NCBI RefSeq assembly: GCF_005848555.1
Contig: NZ_CP040518.1
Location: 1,859,001-1,923,000, forward strand
DNA from: Blautia sp. SC05B48
Lineage (GTDB): Bacteria; Bacillota; Clostridia; Lachnospirales; Lachnospiraceae
Length of the DNA stretch: 64,000 nt
Direction: 5' to 3'
The notes beneath the pieces were generated by a model. The model was not told the DNA's origin. It saw only the letters and a list, made by a program, of their open reading frames with translations, and made no database searches. Numbering within the stretch: position 1 is the first letter of the stretch; each line of letters begins with the position of its first letter. A program made the position numbers and the translations under genes. This document shows positions 12,471-62,492 of this stretch, one piece after another.

Positions 12471-12959
12471 TTATAGATTCAAAGGAAGTCGTCCCACAAC
12501 TTCCTTTGTCAACACTCCTATGAGAATACCTGCCAGGACACCTGCCACCAGCAGTGCCGGTGCATAAATCATCAAACTCGTATTGCTCACCACGATCATG
12601 GCAACGATCAGCTGACCGATATTATGTGTGACACCACCGGCCACACTGATACCGATCAGACTGAAGCAGGAATGTTTTTTCAAAAGATCCATCACAGTCA
12701 GGCTAAGCGCAGCGCCAGCCAGACTATACAAAATACTGAACAGATTTCCAAACATAAATCCGATCACCAGGATTCTGACAACGGACACGAGAGCCGCTTC
12801 TTTAAAGGAATATCGGTCCAGTATAAAAAGCACCGCCAGGTTTGCAAGTCCGAGCTTGATACCCGGAATCCCTGTAAATACAGGGATCAGAGACTCCACA
12901 TATCCAAAAATGATTGCTACTGCGGCAAATAATCCGAGATAAGCTGTTTTTCGTTTCAT
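12471..12959 (-). CDS. Gx transporter family membrane protein
   Basis: 162 aa, strongly hydrophobic, about five membrane segments, with GIPGIKLGLANLA near residue 30. This is the family named heptaprenyl diphosphate synthase component I, now called Gx transporter, an ECF S-component-like fold. Such genes sit with NusG-II, FMN-binding and ApbE genes in flavin electron-transfer loci, as here. Its role may be substrate or quinone-precursor uptake; this is inference. Minus-strand AAAGGA precedes the ATG. Probably cotranscribed with the NusG-II gene upstream. Confidence 0.8.
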   Translation of the reverse strand: MKRKTAYLGLFAAVAIIFGYVESLIPVFTGIPGIKLGLANLAVLFILDRYSFKEAALVSVVRILVIGFMFGNLFSILYSLAGAALSLTVMDLLKKHSCFSLIGISVAGGVTHNIGQLIVAMIVVSNTSLMIYAPALLVAGVLAGILIGVLTKEVVGRLPLNL

Positions 12960-13060: not shown

Positions 13061-13429
13061 TTATGTCACCGCATCAATTTTCGGGGAACTCTCCGAATCC
13101 TCTGCAGTATTTTCCCCTTCTATCACAACCTTATTAGGAAGGCAGATGATGGAACCGCCGTGCTCGTCCACAGCCTTCTGTTTCATACAGTAATGATCCG
13201 GGCAGGTTGCTTCGATCATGGTAACTTTTCCATCTTTGATCTCGCAGACATTGGTGTCTCCGATGTGTATGATCTGGTCCTGGGAAAGAGAATAGGTTCC
13301 GAACTCTTTTCCGTCAACGGTAATACGGATCATATTATGGGACCGTTTCCCCGCAATCTGAAAACCAAGCCAGAGAACCCCTGCCAGAATCAGGATCCCG
13401 GCAATAAAAATCATTTCTTTTTTCTTCAA
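13061..13429 (-). CDS. NusG domain II-containing membrane-anchored protein
   Basis: 122 aa: an N-terminal membrane anchor (about 7-26), then a small extracytoplasmic beta-domain of the NusG-II type with VDGKEFGTYSL and CPDHYCMKQ, a CPDHxC motif common to this family. Starts with TTG (13427-13429), supported by GGAG seven nt upstream. Family members accompany FMN-binding/ApbE loci and may act in redox protein assembly on the outer face of the membrane; function is not established. Confidence 0.8.
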   Translation of the reverse strand: MKKKEMIFIAGILILAGVLWLGFQIAGKRSHNMIRITVDGKEFGTYSLSQDQIIHIGDTNVCEIKDGKVTMIEATCPDHYCMKQKAVDEHGGSIICLPNKVVIEGENTAEDSESSPKIDAVT

Positions 13430-13463
13430 AACAAATCTCCATTTCTGTTACAGATTCAAAAAA

Positions 13464-13492
13464 ATCATATCATAATCGAAATTAAAAGGCAA
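13464..13492 (-). promoter_or_regulatory. minus-strand promoter for the NusG-II/Gx unit
   Basis: Read on the minus strand: TTGCCT (13487-13492), 17-bp spacer, TATGAT (13464-13469). A TTAA-N6-CTAA dyad sits 7 bp upstream of the -35. Confidence 0.5.
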
Positions 13493-13499
13493 ACATAAG

Positions 13500-13513
13500 T
13501 TAATGATATCTAA
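13500..13513. promoter_or_regulatory. candidate operator 1 (TTAA-TGATAT-CTAA)
   Basis: First of four 14-bp TTAR-N6-CTAA dyads in the 416-bp divergent region; see findings. Confidence 0.45.
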
Positions 13514-13579
13514 CCATAATTCATACAGCTGTTCCAAACGGAAAGGGAGGAGTGGCGAAAAAATTCACATTATAAAAAG

Positions 13580-13593
13580 TTAAAAACTACTAA
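13580..13593. promoter_or_regulatory. candidate operator 2 (TTAA-AAACTA-CTAA)
   Basis: Ends 8 bp upstream of the -35 of the FMN-binding operon promoter. Confidence 0.45.
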
Positions 13594-13601
13594 CAAAAAT
13601 G

Positions 13602-13630
13602 TAGACAAGAAAAAAATCAGATGATATAAT
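13602..13630 (+). promoter_or_regulatory. promoter of the FMN-binding/ApbE operon
   Basis: TAGACA (13602-13607), 17-bp spacer, TATAAT (13625-13630). The leader to the first start codon is about 205 nt. Confidence 0.6.
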
Positions 13631-13643
13631 ACTTGACTGTAAG

Positions 13644-13657
13644 TTAGCAACATCTAA
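13644..13657. promoter_or_regulatory. candidate operator 3 (TTAG-CAACAT-CTAA)
   Basis: Perfect 4-6-4 dyad at about +7 to +20 of the predicted transcript, a repressor position. Same architecture as the site before feoA at 53260-53273. Confidence 0.5.
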
Positions 13658-13671
13658 TTTTATAAAAATGA

Positions 13672-13685
13672 TTAATCTAAACTAA
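13672..13685. promoter_or_regulatory. candidate operator 4 (TTAA-TCTAAA-CTAA)
   Basis: Fourth dyad of the same design, 14 bp downstream of operator 3. Confidence 0.4.
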
Positions 13686-13762
13686 TTTATGGATATGGAT
13701 AAAAATTACATAATTTATCCAAAAGACAGTTATACGCAGATTGCAGGATTGGATCGAGAGCA

Positions 13763-13810
13763 TCTGACGCAGCAATATATGTTCGTATAGCCTGAGTCTG
13801 ATGCAGCAAT
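13763..13810 (+). repeat. short direct repeat in operon leader
   Basis: TCTGACGCAGCAAT (13763-13776) and TCTGATGCAGCAAT (13797-13810), 34 bp apart, in the leader of the FMN-binding operon. No known riboswitch recognised here. Confidence 0.4.
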
Positions 13811-13845
13811 TTACGGAATTGTTATAAATACAAGGGAGAAAAGAG

Positions 13846-14439
13846 ATGAAAAACCAGAATTTTTACATGAGAGTGATCTCATTGCTGTTAGTGGTTCTTG
13901 CTGTGCTTTTTTATAACAGCAGCATGAAAGCCCAGGCAAATGAAAAAGAGATCGCGGCTCTGACAGATAAGGTAGATACACTTCAGGAGCAGCAGAATGA
14001 ACTTCTCAGCGCGCTGGAGACAAGCTACGCAAACCGTGTGAAGAACCAGAGTACTGCAGCAGAAACCGAGGCATCCAGCAGCGACAGCACAGACAACGAA
14101 TCTGTGGACAGCTCCGGTTCAGGCAGTACAGCGGACAGTGGCGAAGCAGACAGCAGCGGAGATAATGTCTATAAAGACGGAACCTATACAGGAGAAGCAC
14201 AGGGTTACGGTGGAACGATTCAGGTTGAGGTGACGCTTTCCGGTGATGAGATCACATCCATTAATGTGACAAGCGCTCCCGGTGAGGACAGCGCGTATCT
14301 TTCTCAGGCAGAAAGCGTGATCGATTCTATTATCAGTGCCCAGAGTACAGATGTGGACACCGTATCAGGAGCAACTTTTAGTTCCACAGGAATTCTGAAT
14401 GCGGTTGATGAAGCTCTTGGAAAGGCGGAAAATTCATGA
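13846..14439 (+). CDS. membrane-anchored FMN-binding domain protein
   Basis: 197 aa. N-terminal membrane anchor (about 9-26), a short coiled-coil-like segment (KEIAALTDKVDTLQEQQNE), a Ser/Glu/Asp-rich flexible linker (about 65-105), then one FMN-binding domain (about 108-195) with the flavinylation motif DTVSGATFSS, whose Thr is the residue ApbE modifies. It should carry covalent FMN outside the membrane. Its stop overlaps the next start (ATGA), which couples it to the ferredoxin-like protein and, further on, to ApbE. Confidence 0.9.
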   Translation: MKNQNFYMRVISLLLVVLAVLFYNSSMKAQANEKEIAALTDKVDTLQEQQNELLSALETSYANRVKNQSTAAETEASSSDSTDNESVDSSGSGSTADSGEADSSGDNVYKDGTYTGEAQGYGGTIQVEVTLSGDEITSINVTSAPGEDSAYLSQAESVIDSIISAQSTDVDTVSGATFSSTGILNAVDEALGKAENS

Positions 14440-15209
14440 AAAAGAGACAGAGGGAAGTAAGGCTGATGCGTGCGGGGATACAGTTAGCGTTCTTTATTGC
14501 GGCACCTTCTCTGTTCTCTACAGCTTTTGCGGGAATCAAATCAATCTTTCTTGCCATTGGATCCGGACAGGCGGTGGAGTGGAATTCTTTTTTGACCGTG
14601 ACGGCCGTTCTTCTGATCTTCACCTGCTTTTTCGGAAGACATTTCTGTGGATATGCGTGTGCGTTCGGATCTTTCGGCGATGCCGTGTACGAAGGCTTTT
14701 CCTGGATCTGGACGAAATGTTTTCATAAAAAAAAGAAACCAGCCCTTTCTGAAAAGCTGGTCCACAGACTTCAGAAAGTCAAATATATCGTACTGGCCCT
14801 GATCCTGCTTTCCTGCATCACAGGTGTATACGGAAAGCTCACAGGAACCAGCCCGTGGGATGTTTTTTCCATGATCACAGCTGGACGGCTTCCAAACAGT
14901 AAATACTTGGTGGGGATCATCCTGCTGATCCTGATCATGATCGGAATGTGCACCCAGGAGCGCTTTTTCTGCCAGTTTCTCTGCCCGATGGGAGCGGTGT
15001 TTGCGCTGATGCCGATTTTGCCGGGAGCCTTATTCCGGAGAAATCGTGAGAAATGCCCGCCGAAATGCGGACTTTGTAAAAAGAGATGTCCGGCGCATCT
15101 GGATATTGACGGTGATACGGCGATGTCAGGGGAATGTCTTTGCTGCCATGCCTGTGCGGCGACATGCCCGCGGAAAAATATTCACATTGGAACAACTGAG
15201 GAAAAATAA
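14436..15209 (+). CDS. 4Fe-4S membrane electron-transfer protein, NapH/NosR/YccM-like
   Basis: 257 aa. Several membrane helices carry the Cys motifs GRHFCGYACAFG and FFCQFLCPMGAV of the NapH/NosR-type family. The C-terminal tail holds a two-cluster ferredoxin domain (CGLCKKRCP and CLCCHACAATCP). It would take electrons from the cytoplasm or quinone pool and pass them to the extracytoplasmic FMN protein encoded upstream. Overlaps that gene by 4 nt and ends 3 bp before apbE, a tight three-gene unit. Confidence 0.88.
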   Translation: MKKRQREVRLMRAGIQLAFFIAAPSLFSTAFAGIKSIFLAIGSGQAVEWNSFLTVTAVLLIFTCFFGRHFCGYACAFGSFGDAVYEGFSWIWTKCFHKKKKPALSEKLVHRLQKVKYIVLALILLSCITGVYGKLTGTSPWDVFSMITAGRLPNSKYLVGIILLILIMIGMCTQERFFCQFLCPMGAVFALMPILPGALFRRNREKCPPKCGLCKKRCPAHLDIDGDTAMSGECLCCHACAATCPRKNIHIGTTEEK

Positions 15210-15212
15210 TCT

Positions 15213-16277
15213 ATGAAATATCAGGCTCTTAAAAAGAAAGCTTTTTTTGCCACAGCAGTACTCACAGGGACAGTGATGCTGTTTCCGGTTGGATGTCCGG
15301 CTGCGGCAGAGAAAGATATACAGAACTATACAGATACCGATTTTGCCATGGATACTGTGGTATCGGAAACACTTTATACCACAGGAGACGATATAAACAG
15401 TAAACTGACTTCAATTCTGACAGATGTGGAGACGAATCTTCTGTCCTGGACAAATGAGAGTTCGCAGATTTATAAGGTGAACGCAGATTGCGGAAACGAT
15501 ACGGAGATTTCCGAAGAACTTTCCGGATATCTGGAACGCATCCTTGCCATTGCGAAAGATTCTAATGGAGCCTTTGATCCGACGATTGGAGAACTGATTC
15601 GGCTGTGGGATATCGGAGGGGAGAATCAGCGGATTCCCGGAAAAGATGAAATTCAGGAAGCGCTGAAGGATTCCGGATACAAAAAGGTTTCCCTGGATGG
15701 AAATATGGTTCATATGGATAAGGGCTGTTCTCTGGATCTCGGAGCTGCCGGAAAGGGAATCGGCTGTGATTCCATCCTGGAATATCTGAAAACGCAGAAA
15801 GAAGTCTCTGCGGCGCTTATGAATCTGGGAGGAAGCAGTGTCATGACTTATGGAAGCAAGCCGGATGGTTCTTCCTGGAATGTGGCAGTGACAGATCCCA
15901 GAGCTGAAAATGAGGATGACTATCTTGGTGTGGTTGCCTTAAATGGTACAGAATTTCTTTCCACATCCGGAGATTATGAGAAATATTTTATCGAAAATGG
16001 TGTAAGGTATCACCACATTATGGACCCGTCTACCGGCTATCCGGCAGAAAGCGGAGTGACCGGGGTAACGGTAGTCTGTGACACCGGACTGGAGGCAGAT
16101 GCGCTTTCCACAGCATGTTTTGTGCTGGGGGTGGAAAAAGGGGCACAGCTGTTGAAAGCTTACGGTGCAGACGGACTTTTTGTGGATGAAGATCATCATG
16201 TATATCTCACTGAGGGGATGAAAGAGCGGTTCAGCCTGATTGCAGATTCCTACAGTGTGGAGGATATTGCAGAGTGA
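15213..16277 (+). CDS. apbE: FAD:protein FMN transferase (ApbE), probable lipoprotein
   Basis: 354 aa. Transfers FMN from FAD to Thr in D-x-x-SGAT motifs of FMN-binding domains. The signal peptide ends in PVGC, an approximate lipobox, so it is likely anchored on the outer face. Family motifs: DFAMDTVVS near residue 45, DLGAAGKGIGCD, MNLGGSSVM, and HHIMDPSTGYPAE, which supplies metal ligands. It lies in the operon with one target and near a second target with three sites (18781-20382). Confidence 0.95.
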   Translation: MKYQALKKKAFFATAVLTGTVMLFPVGCPAAAEKDIQNYTDTDFAMDTVVSETLYTTGDDINSKLTSILTDVETNLLSWTNESSQIYKVNADCGNDTEISEELSGYLERILAIAKDSNGAFDPTIGELIRLWDIGGENQRIPGKDEIQEALKDSGYKKVSLDGNMVHMDKGCSLDLGAAGKGIGCDSILEYLKTQKEVSAALMNLGGSSVMTYGSKPDGSSWNVAVTDPRAENEDDYLGVVALNGTEFLSTSGDYEKYFIENGVRYHHIMDPSTGYPAESGVTGVTVVCDTGLEADALSTACFVLGVEKGAQLLKAYGADGLFVDEDHHVYLTEGMKERFSLIADSYSVEDIAE

Positions 16278-16402: not shown

Positions 16403-18616
16403 ATGCAGAAGTGGAATCTACTGAAAAAAACAGCTCCATGCATCTTAAGTCTTGCGGTGGCAGCAACAACTTTTCCGACCGCTGTAATGGCATCTGATCT
16501 TGATGCAGCCGTGGTTTCCGAGGCAGAGGCAGGAGATACGGAAGATTTTGTAACAGAGGAAACAACAGAGGATACAGCAGCAGTGACAGAAGCAGCGGCA
16601 GACGAGACAGAGGATATCCAGCAGGAAGATACAGAAGCTGTTGAGAATCTGGATGAGACAGCAGAGGAAGCAGATCCGTTCTCTACAGGAGAAGAGGATT
16701 TTACAGAAGGCGATGAAGTGGCAGAAGCATTTTCCGATTCTGACCAGCTGACAGGCGAGTATCAGTATGTATATGCAGGACTTACCTGGGGTGAGTACTG
16801 GGCAGCTGAAGGCGTCTATGCAGCTGGAGATACAAGCTCTTCAGAAGAGAAGGATTCACATAGTGAGTTTGATACAGGAGCTTTTGATACAGTAACAAGA
16901 GCAACTGCAAATCATGGACTCCACAGAGGAAGCTATCAGACAGAAGCTACGATCATTGCTGAAGACGGAACCAGATTCGATATATCCTACTGGGAGGATA
17001 AAGGAAGCACACTTTATCTTACAGACGGTTCCAAGGTAAAATGGAACAGAGGCAGTATAACAACAGAAGATGGAAAAACCTATACGATGGATCATTATGA
17101 GATATATGGTCTGAAATATGTTCCGGTAGCAGTTAAGACCGCAGATTTTGCAGATTTCTGCAAAAAGTATAATGTCGTACAGGATGGAGCTATGCTCTCC
17201 GGAGGATACAGTGAAAACAATCTCCAGTATTATAAAGGCCTTGTGGCAGACGTAAATGCACAGACAAATGGTCTGAAATATGCGGAGAAAAATGGTGACG
17301 GCTTTACATTTACAGCAAGAAAATCAGACGGAACAGCTTCCGGTATCAAGGATCAGGCGTTAAAAACAGCAACAGGGATCAAGCCGAGTGTAAAAGCAGC
17401 AAGCGGAAGCTACGGCGAATTCCTCCGTGTGGATCTCAATGGAAATTATGGCGATCTTGGTGCAAATATGCAGGCTGTACGCTGGGATTATTATGGAGAT
17501 GATTCCACATATACAAAATGCCTCGCTTCTTATGGAACCAAGTTTGCCGCAGATAACTGGATGCATAAAGCAATGGGAATCCAGCTTGGACTTACAAAAT
17601 CTGCACGCTGCAAGCTTCCGGGAGGAACAGACGGAACAGGATACTGGAAACTGACAGTGTATGCTCTTGGATATAATGACTATACCTACAGCTTCCAGGC
17701 AACTGCAGAGAATATCGTAAATCCTACAATGGAGCCGACTGATTTTACAAGTCTTAAAACGGAAGTGGAAGCTGCAAAAGCTCTGGCAGAGAAGGATTAC
17801 ACAATTGCAACCTGGAAGTCCTTTGCCGGTGAGCTTCAGGAAGCAGAAGACATTCTTGCAAAAACAGATGCAAGTCAGGCTGAGGTAAATGAAGCACTTG
17901 AACATCTTCAGGGAGCAGAGAAAGAGCTTCAGAAGGTAACAGTTACACTTGATAAGACAGCAGCTGCTGTATATATAGGAAAAACGACGACTCTTAAGGC
18001 AACAACAAATGACAGCGATGCAGCAGTAACATTTAAGTCCGGCAACACAAAGGTTGCAACAGTAAGCAGCAAGGGTGTTGTTAAAGGCGTAAAAGCCGGA
18101 ACAGCAGTTATCACAGCAAAGGTAGGAAATGCCACAGCAACCTGCAAGGTAACAGTAAAAGCTTCTACAATTAAATTTGCAAAGGCCTCCGTAACGATCT
18201 ACAAAGGAAAAACAGCAACTGTAAAAGCAACTGCAACACCATCTGCAACTGTAAAATACACAAGCAGCAACACAAAGGTTGCAACCGTAAACAGCAAAAC
18301 AGGTGTTGTAAAAGGAATCAAAGCAGGAACCGTTACGATTACAGCAAAGGCAGGAGCCCTGAAGACAACCTGCAAAGTAGTTGTCAAGAATCCTGCATTC
18401 AGTCTTGTAAAATCTTCTGCAACGATCAAAAAAGGTAAAACAACAACCATCAGATCCAAAGCAGCACCTGCAGGCAAGGTTACATATACAAGCAGCAATA
18501 AAAAAGTTGCAGCTGTAAACAGCAAGGGTGTTGTAAAGGGAATCAAAAAAGGTAAAGCAACGATCACAGTGAAATGCAACGGAATTACAAAGAAATTTGT
18601 GGTAACTGTTAAATAA
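16403..18616 (+). CDS. secreted surface protein with FIVAR and three BIG2 Ig-like domains
   Basis: 737 aa, start after AGGAGG at 16390-16395. Signal peptide (1-30), acidic Thr/Glu-rich linker (30-115), an unrecognised folded region (about 116-440) beginning YQYVYAGLTWGEYW, a FIVAR-like helical segment (about 446-510), then three BIG2 bacterial Ig-like repeats (about 513-586, 589-662, 664-737), each with a KGVVKG-type signature. No LPXTG. Its place between two flavin-protein units suggests a surface role in the same process, but this is only positional evidence. Confidence 0.75.
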   Translation: MQKWNLLKKTAPCILSLAVAATTFPTAVMASDLDAAVVSEAEAGDTEDFVTEETTEDTAAVTEAAADETEDIQQEDTEAVENLDETAEEADPFSTGEEDFTEGDEVAEAFSDSDQLTGEYQYVYAGLTWGEYWAAEGVYAAGDTSSSEEKDSHSEFDTGAFDTVTRATANHGLHRGSYQTEATIIAEDGTRFDISYWEDKGSTLYLTDGSKVKWNRGSITTEDGKTYTMDHYEIYGLKYVPVAVKTADFADFCKKYNVVQDGAMLSGGYSENNLQYYKGLVADVNAQTNGLKYAEKNGDGFTFTARKSDGTASGIKDQALKTATGIKPSVKAASGSYGEFLRVDLNGNYGDLGANMQAVRWDYYGDDSTYTKCLASYGTKFAADNWMHKAMGIQLGLTKSARCKLPGGTDGTGYWKLTVYALGYNDYTYSFQATAENIVNPTMEPTDFTSLKTEVEAAKALAEKDYTIATWKSFAGELQEAEDILAKTDASQAEVNEALEHLQGAEKELQKVTVTLDKTAAAVYIGKTTTLKATTNDSDAAVTFKSGNTKVATVSSKGVVKGVKAGTAVITAKVGNATATCKVTVKASTIKFAKASVTIYKGKTATVKATATPSATVKYTSSNTKVATVNSKTGVVKGIKAGTVTITAKAGALKTTCKVVVKNPAFSLVKSSATIKKGKTTTIRSKAAPAGKVTYTSSNKKVAAVNSKGVVKGIKKGKATITVKCNGITKKFVVTVK

Positions 18617-18681: not shown

Positions 18682-18780
18682 TCTGCTCATTTCTACAGCA
18701 ATCCGGAAAATCACCTGGAATGCGATACAGAGCATATGCCTGACGGGAAGCCGCATAGAAAGAGGGGAGAACAAGTATCC

Positions 18781-20382
18781 ATGGAAAAAGAGTTAAAAGA
18801 TAAAAAACCAGCCGAAAATGGCACACCCAAGGTGCCCTGGACGAAAATGATCCCTGCAGCAGCTGTGATTGCGGCGCTTGCGTTTTCGGGCATAAAGGCG
18901 AAGGGATCCGAGGAATCAACGGAAGCAGTACAGAAAGCAGAGACAACCGTGATGTCTGCTTCGGAGTTGGAAAAATATCTCGGATATGAAGAAGGAAATA
19001 CTGTTTCTGACAGCACATCTGCCTCAGATAAGAAAAACAGTACATCAAAGAAAAGCTCATCAAAGAAAAGTGCGAAAAAAACAGCAGCAAAAAAAAGTTC
19101 TGGTACGAGAACGGTTTCAGAATCAGCAAAAAGCAATGCCGGTGCGGCAGGACAGGGTTCTACCCAGACCCCGGTAGCGGCAGTTCCGGCCAATGGCTAT
19201 AAAGATGGAGTATATGAAGGATCTGGAACCGGATTCGGTGGTACGATCCGTGTACAGGTAACAGTCAGCGGAGGAAAGATCGCAGCCATTGATATTCTGG
19301 ATGCATCTGGCGAGACTGCATCTTATTTTGCGTCAGCTCAGGGTGTGATCAGCAGGATGATCGCCGGAAATACACCGAATGTAGATGCAGTAAGTGGAGC
19401 AACCTATTCCTCCAACGGAATCATCCAGGCAGTTCAGAATGCGCTCTCCCAGGCAGCGGCAGATGGAAGTAGCCAGCAGGTCACCCCTGCACCTGTAGTA
19501 ACGGCTGTACCAACTATGACACCATCACCGTCACCTACAAAAAAACCATCTTCTGCAAAGGAGCCGGAAGATCCGGACAGTCCGAAAAAATATCTGGACG
19601 GTAAATATACAGCTTCGGCAAAGGGCTTCAATGGAGACGTGAAAGTAATTGTGACCATCAAGGATGGAGTGATCGAAGCTCTGAAACAGGAAAATACGGA
19701 CACGGAGCAGTTTTTTGAAAGAGCATGGAGCGTGCTGGAAAAACAGATCATAGGCACAGATTCTGTGGATGATATTGATACAGTCAGCGGAGCAACCTAT
19801 TCTTCCAACGGAATTCTGAATGCTGTAAAAAAAGCTCTCAAAGAAGCGGTCAATCCGGAGTATGGAAAGAAACCCACACCAACTCCGACAAAGAAACCGA
19901 TACCAAAGCCAACAGCCACACTGAAACCTGCGGCAACGCCGAAACCAACAGCCACACCGAAGCCAACAGAGACACCGGCAGCAACCCCGACGCCGGAGCC
20001 GGACGACCCGGATGTGACGCCGGTTCCTGAAAAACCCAATGTAACTCCAACACCAGGGACAGATGAGCCGGATGCCACGCCGGAGCCAACGGAAGCACCG
20101 GAACCTGCCGGAATGTACAGAGATGGAACGTATACGGGATCAGCTTTTGGATATGGAGGAAAAACATATCTGACAATCACGATCTCAGGAGGCCAGATCG
20201 TATCCATTGAGCAGACAAATCAGGATACACCGGAATTTTTTGATCCTGCATGGAGCATGATCTATTCTCAGATCATGGCAAACCAGTCGGCAGATGGAAT
20301 TGATACTGTCAGCGGAGCCACATATTCATCCGAAGGGATCCTGGACGCTGCACAAAAGGCCCTTGCCCAGGCGAAGAATTAA
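18781..20382 (+). CDS. secreted protein with three FMN-binding (flavinylation) domains
   Basis: 533 aa from ATG 18781, with GAGGGGAG at 18762; the in-frame ATG at 18736 lacks a site. A membrane anchor (about 20-38), a Lys/Ser-rich basic stretch, then three FMN-binding domains at about 138-225, 270-365 and 443-533, separated by Pro-Thr-Lys-rich linkers. Each has a flavinylation motif: DAVSGATYSS, DTVSGATYSS, DTVSGATYSS. It would carry up to three covalent FMN groups in a row outside the cell, a likely electron conduit fed by the 13846-16277 operon and flavinylated by its ApbE. The repeats differ enough to be old duplications. Confidence 0.9.
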   Translation: MEKELKDKKPAENGTPKVPWTKMIPAAAVIAALAFSGIKAKGSEESTEAVQKAETTVMSASELEKYLGYEEGNTVSDSTSASDKKNSTSKKSSSKKSAKKTAAKKSSGTRTVSESAKSNAGAAGQGSTQTPVAAVPANGYKDGVYEGSGTGFGGTIRVQVTVSGGKIAAIDILDASGETASYFASAQGVISRMIAGNTPNVDAVSGATYSSNGIIQAVQNALSQAAADGSSQQVTPAPVVTAVPTMTPSPSPTKKPSSAKEPEDPDSPKKYLDGKYTASAKGFNGDVKVIVTIKDGVIEALKQENTDTEQFFERAWSVLEKQIIGTDSVDDIDTVSGATYSSNGILNAVKKALKEAVNPEYGKKPTPTPTKKPIPKPTATLKPAATPKPTATPKPTETPAATPTPEPDDPDVTPVPEKPNVTPTPGTDEPDATPEPTEAPEPAGMYRDGTYTGSAFGYGGKTYLTITISGGQIVSIEQTNQDTPEFFDPAWSMIYSQIMANQSADGIDTVSGATYSSEGILDAAQKALAQAKN

Positions 20383-53012: not shown

Positions 53013-53228
53013 TCAGACTTGCACGATGATCATTTTGGCAAAGTCCTGATTGATGCCGATCTTGCTTTCCTGGATTCGTACAATATAAGAGCCGAAAAGA
53101 ATCGACAGAATCCGTACCGTTGCTCCTTCAAGAAAACCAAGCGTTTCCAGATGATGGCGTTCGTTTTCATTGCCGCATATTTTTTGAATGATATAATCTG
53201 TGTTGATATCAGCTAAATTCAGTGGCAT
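53013..53228 (-). CDS. feoA: FeoA domain protein
   Basis: 71 aa, SH3-like FeoA family, an accessory of ferrous iron uptake by FeoB. ETLGFLEGATVRIL and VRIQESKIGINQDFAKMI match the family. No feoB is next to it. GGAGGAACT precedes the ATG. A TTAG-N6-CTAA dyad stands upstream, consistent with iron control. Confidence 0.85.
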   Translation of the reverse strand: MPLNLADINTDYIIQKICGNENERHHLETLGFLEGATVRILSILFGSYIVRIQESKIGINQDFAKMIIVQV

Positions 53229-53259: not shown

Positions 53260-53273
53260 TTAGTTTTAACTAA
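53260..53273. promoter_or_regulatory. candidate iron-regulator operator before feoA
   Basis: TTAG-TTTTAA-CTAA, a perfect 14-bp dyad about 30 bp upstream of feoA. Same 4-6-4 design as the dyads at 13500-13685. Confidence 0.5.
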
Positions 53274-53483
53274 CATTATATCGCAAAGAAAAGATATGTC
53301 AATGGTTTGCAGAGTGTTACTTTTGAGTGAAATTTTTCAAAGCAGTTTTATATGGGACGACAGGCAGAGCAGTTTGTGATATGATAAAAAAATATCGTCA
53401 ATAAATATAAGAATGTTTAGAAATTGTTTAGCCGACAGGCGTATAAGGAAGATGAATAAAAATGCAGCAGGGGAGATAGAAAA

Positions 53484-54427
53484 ATGGATACGGTAAAATA
53501 AGATTTCAGCAGACTTTTTCGCTGTATGCAGCGCGCCGAAAGAGGAGAAGAGCTGACAATAGGCTTCTTTGGCGGTTCAATCACCCAGGGCAAGATCCTG
53601 AAGCCGCTGACTAATCTTGTGAGCAGCTTTGCCATGGGAACTACGGTTCTGCTGGGGCAGCAGATTGGCTGTGGAGAGCGGAAAAAGGGAGGTCGGACGG
53701 TGGGAACTGCCATTGTGATGTTCGGAGTGATCGCGCTGATCATGACTGTGATCCTTGTGATTTTTGCGCCTCAGGTCAGCAGTATCATGAATGCGCCGGA
53801 AGAAGCCTTTGACAAGACTGTGGATTATGTACGGATCTGCTGGTAAGTATTTCCTTCCTGATCATTCTTGCCATCGTGAATTCCATGGATGTGACAGCTT
53901 CCGCAGGAGTGGGAGTTGCGGAAAAAGTCTGCGCGTTTATCATGCTGATCTCCTCAGCATTTATGCAGTCCATCTCTGCTTTTGTGGCTCAGAATTACGG
54001 CGCAGGACGGATGGACTGTGCGAAAAAAGCGCTGCATTATGGTGTGGCAGTTTCTTTTGCCATCGGCGTGGGAATGTTTTTCCTGTCATTTTTCCATGGA
54101 GGTGCTCTGGCGGGAATCTTCTCGTCGGATACCATGGTTATTGATGCGGCGGCAGATTATCTGAAAGCCTATGCCATTGACTGCATGCTTACGGCGATCT
54201 TTTTCTGCTACATCGGTTTCTATAATGGAATCGGTCTGACAAAGTTTGTGATGATCTAGGGAATCCTGGGCGCTTTCTGTGTCCGTGTTCCGGTATCCTG
54301 GTTTATGAGCCGCCAGCCGGAAGCGACACTGTTTGATATCGGTCTGGCGACACCAATGTCCTCTGCGCAGCAGATCGCGCTTTGCCTTGGCTGCATGCTG
54401 TATCTGAAAAAGAAGCAGCGTGTATAA
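53484..54427 (+). pseudogene. chimeric remnant: SGNH hydrolase N-terminus fused to a MATE transporter fragment
   Basis: ATG 53484 after GGGAGATA, an in-frame TAA at 53499, then AERGEELTIGFFGGSITQG, the N-terminal motif of SGNH/GDSL hydrolases (Ser in GGSITQG). From about 53590 the frame continues as MATE transporter sequence (LVSSFAMGTTVLLGQQIG), stops near 53845, and resumes in another frame (MDVTASAGVGVAEKVCAFIM, to VMI at 54259) and later readthrough to 54427. Multiple stops and frame changes show a decayed gene. Confidence 0.8.
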
Positions 54428-62291: not shown

Positions 62292-62492
62292 AATAGTTCT
62301 CCCGAAGGTTGTAAATTTTACCTGGAATTATAGCACTGCATAAAAGAAACTACAACAGAAATGAAGCGTGATATCCTGACAGTGTTAAGAATGAGAACTG
62401 GAAATTGTCATGTAATCTGATAAGCTTTTCAAGTTAATTAATGTGGGCTAACTGTGTATAGTAAAGTAAGGAATCAAAGAAGCGAGCTTATC

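Follow-up and report, generated by a model that had tools for sequence, protein, structure and literature searches.

The promoters of iron-uptake genes and of an extracytosolic flavin electron-transfer system in Blautia sp. SC05B48 carry dyads of the form TTAR-N6-CTAA, and a DtxR-type, iron-repressed regulon that includes the flavin system is the likely reading of these sites; binding, the iron signal and ferric reduction are the parts of it that we infer. The dyads were noted in a 64,000-nucleotide stretch of the chromosome (NZ_CP040518.1, positions 1,859,001 to 1,923,000; hereafter the window), for which a first-pass annotation had proposed an iron- or metal-responsive regulon resembling those of DtxR and IdeR. 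This proposal is supported by the presence of the motif upstream of feoA in 55 of 79 loci from other genomes, by flavodoxin and transport operons among the targets, by DtxR-type genes adjacent to the sites and by the motif at the flavin unit in 14 of 28 loci.

Dyads of the flavin electron-transfer locus and of feoA

The flavin locus is organized in two divergent units. The minus strand carries an eetA-like gene (13061..13429; NusG_II, PF07009, 2.6e-28) and an eetB-like gene (12471..12959; Gx, PF07456 by Pfam), while the plus strand encodes an FMN-binding protein with one DTVSGAT flavinylation-like motif (13846..14439), a NapH-like membrane 4Fe-4S protein with two CxxCxxxC motifs (Fer4_5; 14436..15209), an ApbE flavin transferase (15213..16277; PF02424, 3.1e-77), a probably secreted protein with Tp47 and Big_2 domains (16403..18616) and a protein with three FMN_bind domains and three D-x-x-SGAT motifs (18736..20382). 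The Tp47/Big_2 gene is without an operator site of its own; its homologues at other loci often bear one. Pfam agreed with the earlier gene calls for Gx (EetB), NusG_II (EetA), FMN_bind, Fer4_5, ApbE and FeoA, and the combination of a PF12801 protein with ApbE and FMN_bind proteins makes this a NapH-like flavinylation cluster. A stand-alone feoA lies further along the window on the minus strand (53013..53228; PF04023, 8.4e-12). At 53526-54427, the frame of a MATE-type transporter looks broken in several pieces, of which the first only has a MatE match.

All five dyads of the first-pass annotation are present where it had placed them, at 13500, 13580, 13644, 13672 and 53260. The identical 4-6-4 form claimed for them holds insofar as every one fits TTAR-N6-CTAA with the spacing of a single-dimer site; a perfect TTAG-N6-CTAA dyad, however, is found in only two of the five, TTAGCAACATCTAA (13644..13657) and TTAGTTTTAACTAA (53260..53273), and in the remaining three one side reads TTAA. 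The predicted plus-strand promoter of the FMN_bind/Fer4_5/ApbE unit (TAGACA-17-TATAAT, 13602..13630, 11/12) has dyads 13 and 41 bases past its -10 box, the first being TTAGCAACATCTAA and the second the operator-like TTAATCTAAACTAA (13672..13685), which begins 28 bp after the 13644 dyad, and has one dyad 5' of its -35 box. Another operator-like dyad, TTAAAAACTACTAA (13580..13593), sits between the divergent promoters, and TTAATGATATCTAA (13500..13513), also operator-like, lies 7 bp 5' of the -35 box of the predicted eetA-eetB promoter (TTGCCT-17-TATGAT, 13464..13492, minus strand), which is conserved in relatives. A rival minus-strand promoter, TTGTTA-16-TATAAT (13596-13569), was discarded in favor of the latter because its -10 box is lost in the related genomes G005 and G016. 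The feoA dyad is upstream of its gene, since feoA is on the minus strand, and stands one base past the -10 box of the predicted feoA promoter (TTGACA-16-TATAAT, 53275..53302, minus strand, 12/12). At most of the predicted promoters the geometry fits a repressor; the eetA dyad may also serve cooperation or activation, as sites 5' of a -35 box could activate.

The matches to TTAR-N6-CTAA in the whole window, both strands included, amount to 8 against 3.51 +/- 2.09 in shuffled sequences, with 3 of 100 shuffles reaching 8, so that window-wide enrichment is only mild; one further match at 62438, absent from the first-pass annotation, is taken as chance. The divergent gap of 416 bp (13430-13845) holds four matches against 0.04 expected, a number equaled in none of 2000 shuffles, and zero matches were obtained there with spacers 2-5 and 7-11. 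The stretch of the dyad cluster has a G+C content of 30%. The four-dyad cluster is not a product of chance.

Conservation of the gap within Blautia

When the gap was aligned with those of the relatives G004, G005 and G016, the dyads 13500, 13644 and 13672 were found to be kept. In these three sites AAGTTAA-N6-CTAACC, AAGTTAG-N6-CTAATT and GATTAA-N6-CTAA, respectively, are unchanged among the four Blautia genomes, while most of the core bases vary; moreover, the 28-bp pitch between the 13644 and 13672 dyads is identical in all four. Dyad 13580 is the weakest of the set, because only its outer GTTA and TACTAAC are kept in the relatives, where TTAR-N6-CTAA no longer fits; single degenerate dyads such as this one could be idle.

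Sites also occur in more distant members of the genus, with two strict ones (TTAG-N6-CTAA) in the gap of G021, and with a relaxed one in the gap plus a strict one just 5' of ApbE in G022. The gene order is different in G001, where one strict site lies before FMN_bind, two lie before ApbE and two more separate the Tp47-like gene from eetB. The flavin unit of G029 had zero sites within the 8 kb fetched.

Sites and targets along the chromosome

The scanned chromosome is one contig of 3.73 Mb. The first-pass annotation had allowed that the motif might turn up genome-wide at the chance rate of AT-rich DNA, or that no iron-regulated gene might share it, and neither is what we found: there are 23 strict N6 sites on the chromosome as compared with 6 for N5 and 11 for N7, and the strict motif recurs upstream of feoA in other genomes (see below). 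The degenerate form TTAR-N6-YTAA has 110 matches, which are taken as mostly noise. An automatic ORF rule assigned 14 of the 23 N6 sites to the 150 bp preceding an ORF, 5 to other non-coding DNA and 4 to the interior of ORFs; the corresponding numbers were 0, 1 and 5 for the N5 sites and 4, 3 and 4 for the N7 sites. One of the 4 sites scored inside an ORF, 122929, is truly located 41 bp upstream of the DtxR-like gene D5 on the other strand. The rule also picks the wrong neighboring ORF for some sites and overlooks the short feoA; for this reason the targets named here were read by hand.

The search for iron genes near the motif, as the annotation had suggested, was productive. Strict sites precede a feoA-feoA-feoB operon, a second feoA and a DUF3793 gene with flavodoxin, the latter with its site after the -10 box by reading. 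The feoA-feoA-feoB operon is preceded by three strict sites and one relaxed site (TTAATCTTGATTAA), and the first strict dyad covers the -10 box of its predicted promoter (TTGACA-17-TAAACT); such a placement, on or beside predicted promoters of iron genes, agrees with operators of the DtxR/IdeR type. Four operons with a Trep_Strep membrane protein are targets as well; Pfam confirmed ABC genes in two of them, and the others show frames that look ABC-like. Two of the four end in the DtxR-type genes D3 and D2. The list further includes the DtxR-like gene D5, with a strict dyad directly after TTGACA/TATAAT, a DUF2325 gene (site 46188), an LCM-type methyltransferase and a class-I methyltransferase and, less surely, an alpha/beta hydrolase and GNAT-like and enolase-like genes, the last two named by look. 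TrmO had been considered as the target of site 46188, and a strand check placed this site upstream of the DUF2325 gene. The methyltransferase, enolase-like and hydrolase targets are without a known iron role, which counts against an iron regulon, and the strict sites 719605, 1525697, 2314450 and 2400761 match no promoter. The strict dyads 1247661, 2590174 and 570868 directly precede two methyltransferase genes and an ORF that has no Pfam match and is followed by a ZIP transporter.

feo loci in other genomes

We took 80 named FeoB loci, 79 of which had a recognizable feoA, and scanned 250 bp upstream of the first feoA (less at contig ends). This upstream DNA contained 84 strict N6 sites, distributed in 55 of the 79 loci, against a shuffle mean of 0.78; about a third of the loci (24 of 79) had no strict site in the tested stretch. 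The TTAR/YTAA form at spacers 1, 4, 5, 7 and 8 showed no excess over shuffles in the same 79 loci. By their titles the feo loci span Lachnospiraceae, Erysipelotrichaceae and Spirochaetales among others, and a logo of 97 strict feo-locus sites displayed an outer G in 78 and an outer C in 71.

An excess was also seen at spacer 10, with 17 sites in the first 2.7 kb of L123-L202 and 8 in the flavin loci described below. It is due in part to nested half-sites TTAGTTAG-N6-CTAACTAA (for example L325 10676-10697, and feo upstream regions), in which the offset is 4, whereas that of the DtxR box is 5.

A gene of the DtxR/MntR type lies next to feoA in divergent orientation in 21 of the 79 loci, and in 19 of these 21 a strict site is found between both genes. 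In 8 loci a DtxR-type gene is located elsewhere in the fetched stretch, and none was present there in the remaining 50. We also observed, behind the feo operon of L028 (12159-15267), a nitrogenase-iron-protein-like ATPase with partner genes, named from a look at the sequence.

Flavin loci in other Lachnospiraceae

Of 299 family genomes, 31 had a match to the Fer4_5 protein at E <= 1e-25, and 28 further loci were read, leaving out two weaker matches (the second one of G249, and G425). The first eight loci to be extended were chosen for a strict site already seen in each of them; the other 20 followed, and all 28 were counted. Together they hold 36 N6 sites (shuffle mean 5.0, maximum 10), while spacers 2, 3, 4, 5, 7, 8, 9, 10 and 11 gave 1, 0, 0, 3, 0, 1, 4, 8 and 1, respectively. 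Taken alone, the 20 loci extended later have 14 N6 sites, and no other spacer exceeds 7 (N10). When only the 250 bp preceding a flavin-cluster gene are considered, N6 sites are found in 14 of the 28 loci (23 sites) and any other spacer in 0-5 loci; the other 14 loci have no strict site in that range. The sites usually precede apbE or the Tp47-like gene. Four loci, L340-L343, have only a longer form of the Fer4_5 protein, in some cases accompanied by ApbE, and lack strict sites; L329 ends at a contig edge.

In contrast with the N6 excess of the flavin loci, the eetA genes alone do not mark the motif. NusG_II was matched in 122 of 146 genomes of the order, and the 30 of these loci examined contained 3 strict N6 sites, not in excess of the 0-3 of the spacer controls, ruling out EetA as a general marker; the motif thus seems to be linked to the FMN_bind/Fer4_5 unit rather than to EetA/EetB generally.

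The content of some of these loci bears on what the flavin system is for. In L316 (1071-13677), genes for DtxR, EetB, ApbE, a large ORF without Pfam match, a multi-FMN protein, FMN_bind and Fer4_5 are followed in the same stretch by FeoA, FeoB, DtxR, HMA, DUF3793 and flavodoxin; this locus has eight strict sites, one of them within the FeoB frame, and is not among the 14 counted, since the genes that its upstream sites face are those of Feo and an unassigned ORF. L317 has a DtxR-type gene divergent from apbE, with a strict site in between, and beside the flavin unit of L322 (7105-12399) there is a 1764-aa protein combining Tp47, FIVAR, FMN_bind and Shr-like hemoglobin-interacting domains. An iron-type switch placed before both iron-uptake and flavin electron-export genes suggests that the flavin proteins serve to win iron, and the flavin system of this regulon probably works at the cell surface as a reductase of ferric or heme iron that feeds Feo. 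It is also conceivable, but we think unlikely, that the operators are real but serve to induce the flavin unit for energy metabolism, or as a replacement of iron-rich electron carriers under iron shortage, rather than for iron acquisition. The presence in the same regulon of flavodoxin, a classical ferredoxin substitute, would agree with that explanation; the two CxxCxxxC iron-sulfur motifs of the NapH-like protein are a poor fit with iron sparing, and FeoA and FeoB directly behind the flavin genes in L316, as well as the hemoglobin-interacting domain of the L322 surface protein, argue for acquisition.

Candidate regulators and the metal signal

Five DtxR-type genes, D1 to D5, are present in the genome. 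D1 (genome 2168797-2169183) matches PF01325 (2.5e-12) and PF02742 (8.2e-14), that is, the DNA-binding and the metal/dimer domains; both Pfam DtxR domains are also found in D2-D4, and the length of D1-D4 (123-138 aa) is MntR-like. The C-terminal SH3-like domain that defines DtxR and IdeR proper is not seen in D1-D4, for which Pfam gave no third domain match. D5 (genome 122055-122888, minus strand; L007 627-1460) is longer, 277 aa, and joins a metal/dimer domain to an additional C-terminal part for which Pfam gave no match. No strict site was found in the 3.1 kb around each of D1-D4.

Regarding which of them may act on these sites, D1 was attractive as sole regulator by its linkage to feoA at ~11 kb, which is the same in the genomes G004, G005 and G016, whose orthologues have 94-98% identity, as in G000, the genome of the window. 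This was ruled out by G021 and G022, both of which have sites and no close D1 orthologue (best 55% and 53%); the job of regulator may therefore pass between paralogues. A tree of the regulators did not single out one paralogue as that of feo.

As for the family of the binder, the strongest single piece comes from a 14-bp palindrome of 4-6-4 geometry, TTAGGTTAACCTAA, designed for one DtxR dimer and bound with an apparent Kd of 5.5 nM in the presence of Co2+ according to PMC13379313; such single-dimer binding points to a DtxR-type protein on the dyads, and it concerns the DtxR of another phylum and not a Blautia protein. Moreover, the published 19-bp DtxR box TTAGGTTAGCCTAACCTAA, as given in PMC7762939, holds two overlapping TTAG-N6-CTAA dyads with an offset of 5.

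The same operators could be served by a DtxR-family protein that senses manganese, as MntR does, with Feo and the flavin genes taking part in a general divalent-metal response, an explanation that we regard as improbable. D1 scores best against the MntR models, yet below their curated cut-offs (103 vs 153 and 72 vs 138 bits), and its nearest solved structures are MntR (2h09) first, followed by SloR, IdeR and DtxR. At the position where DtxR has Met, D1-D4 have Asp, which in D1 corresponds to D8 of MntR. The metal ligands of the iron-type DtxR site are Met and Cys. A DACxxEH metal-site motif is present in 60 of 61 tabulated regulators, its Cys aligning in these 60 with a Glu of B. subtilis MntR, and the Asp position is occupied in the 27 feo-linked regulators by Met (9), Asn (11; 20 of 27 together with Met) or Asp in only 7; both features speak against manganese. 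So do the targets, which are Feo, flavodoxin and flavin electron-transfer genes, and no gene for Nramp, a classical MntR target, was found in the genome. In favor of a role of manganese, TroR of T. denticola answers to both Mn and Fe, as stated in PMC2628430.

It is very improbable that the dyads are bound by a regulator outside the DtxR family, of Fur or MarR type, with the adjoining DtxR genes as bystanders. Among three Fur-type matches in the genome, one has its start ~350 bp away from a strict site, and in C. difficile and C. acetobutylicum feo and flavodoxin respond to low iron as is proposed here, with Fur repression of both reported for C. difficile in PMC6311696; that regulon, however, uses Fur and Fur boxes, those quoted in that source being unlike TTAG-N6-CTAA, whereas the operator predicted here is of DtxR type. 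The strict site between feoA and a divergent DtxR-type gene in 19 of 21 cases and the single-dimer DtxR spacing also stand against it. Finally, that the dyads are chance matches in AT-rich promoter DNA, as the weak window-wide enrichment, the three degenerate sites of five and the 30% G+C might suggest, is refuted for the motif as a class by the shuffles of the local cluster (0 of 2000), by conservation and by the enrichment at feo and flavin loci at the exact spacing, and can hardly be true.

A model of the regulon and its relation to known systems

For the DtxR-type, iron-repressed regulon that we favor, the sequence would be consistent with the following course of events. Each dyad would serve as an operator for one dimer of a DtxR/MntR-type metalloregulator. 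With enough iron in the cell, the repressor would be iron-loaded and would sit on or just past the -10 box of feoA, feoA-feoA-feoB, flavodoxin and the FMN_bind unit, or just 5' of the -35 box at eetA, and block transcription. When iron is low the repressor would leave, turning on Feo, the transport operons, flavodoxin and the surface electron-transfer chain. EetB would then export FAD, ApbE would attach flavin to the FMN_bind proteins, and the NapH-like protein would send electrons outward to a flavin chain reducing ferric (or heme) iron outside the cell, from where Fe(II) would enter via FeoB. A broader version, for which we see even chances, is that the multi-flavinylated NapH-like clusters of Lachnospiraceae are a dedicated iron-acquisition machine under DtxR-type control, in which Tp47/Shr-like surface proteins would hold ferric or heme iron and flavin wires would reduce it, delivering Fe(II) to FeoB.

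The regulon shares with the DtxR/IdeR iron regulons the TTAG/CTAA half-sites, the promoter-occluding positions and the iron-uptake targets, but differs from them in its single or spaced 4-6-4 dyads, in the short, MntR-like candidates D1-D4 and in the inclusion of a flavin electron-transfer system among its targets. Besides its flavin proteins, a Listeria-type extracellular electron-transfer locus has Ndh2 and demethylmenaquinone genes. The Listeria system (PMC9973259) comprises EetA, EetB (the S component of FAD export), ApbE/FmnB and PplA, and has in common with the Blautia locus the grouping of EetA, EetB, ApbE and an FMN-binding protein; the NapH-like 4Fe-4S, multi-FMN and Tp47/Big_2 proteins, the divergent layout and the iron-type operators set the latter apart. 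A likeness in gene content is also offered by the NapH-like, multi-flavinylated clusters described in PMC8238504, with PF12801, ApbE and FMN_bind proteins, a multi-FMN protein and, as in relatives of the Blautia locus, a large protein with FIVAR domains. The role of the multi-flavinylated clusters is called generally unclear in that paper, which notes Fur control for PepSY-like clusters of two Gram-negatives.

A full-text search, with most subscription journals outside its reach, listed no recognizable paper on this motif in Lachnospiraceae or on its link with the flavin cluster; a DtxR-type iron regulon is as a kind known, while the operator in this lineage and the inclusion of a flavin surface cluster appear to be new. 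For a major group of gut bacteria, the work names an operator of iron control together with candidate regulators, and it places an extracytosolic flavin system of unclear purpose inside an iron regulon. The iron-type operators are a concrete clue to the role of multi-flavinylated clusters, and if the iron-acquisition reading is true, it would give this cluster type a function. It predicts, in a form that is easily tested, that the flavin unit would be induced by iron starvation and that growth on ferric or heme iron would depend on it.
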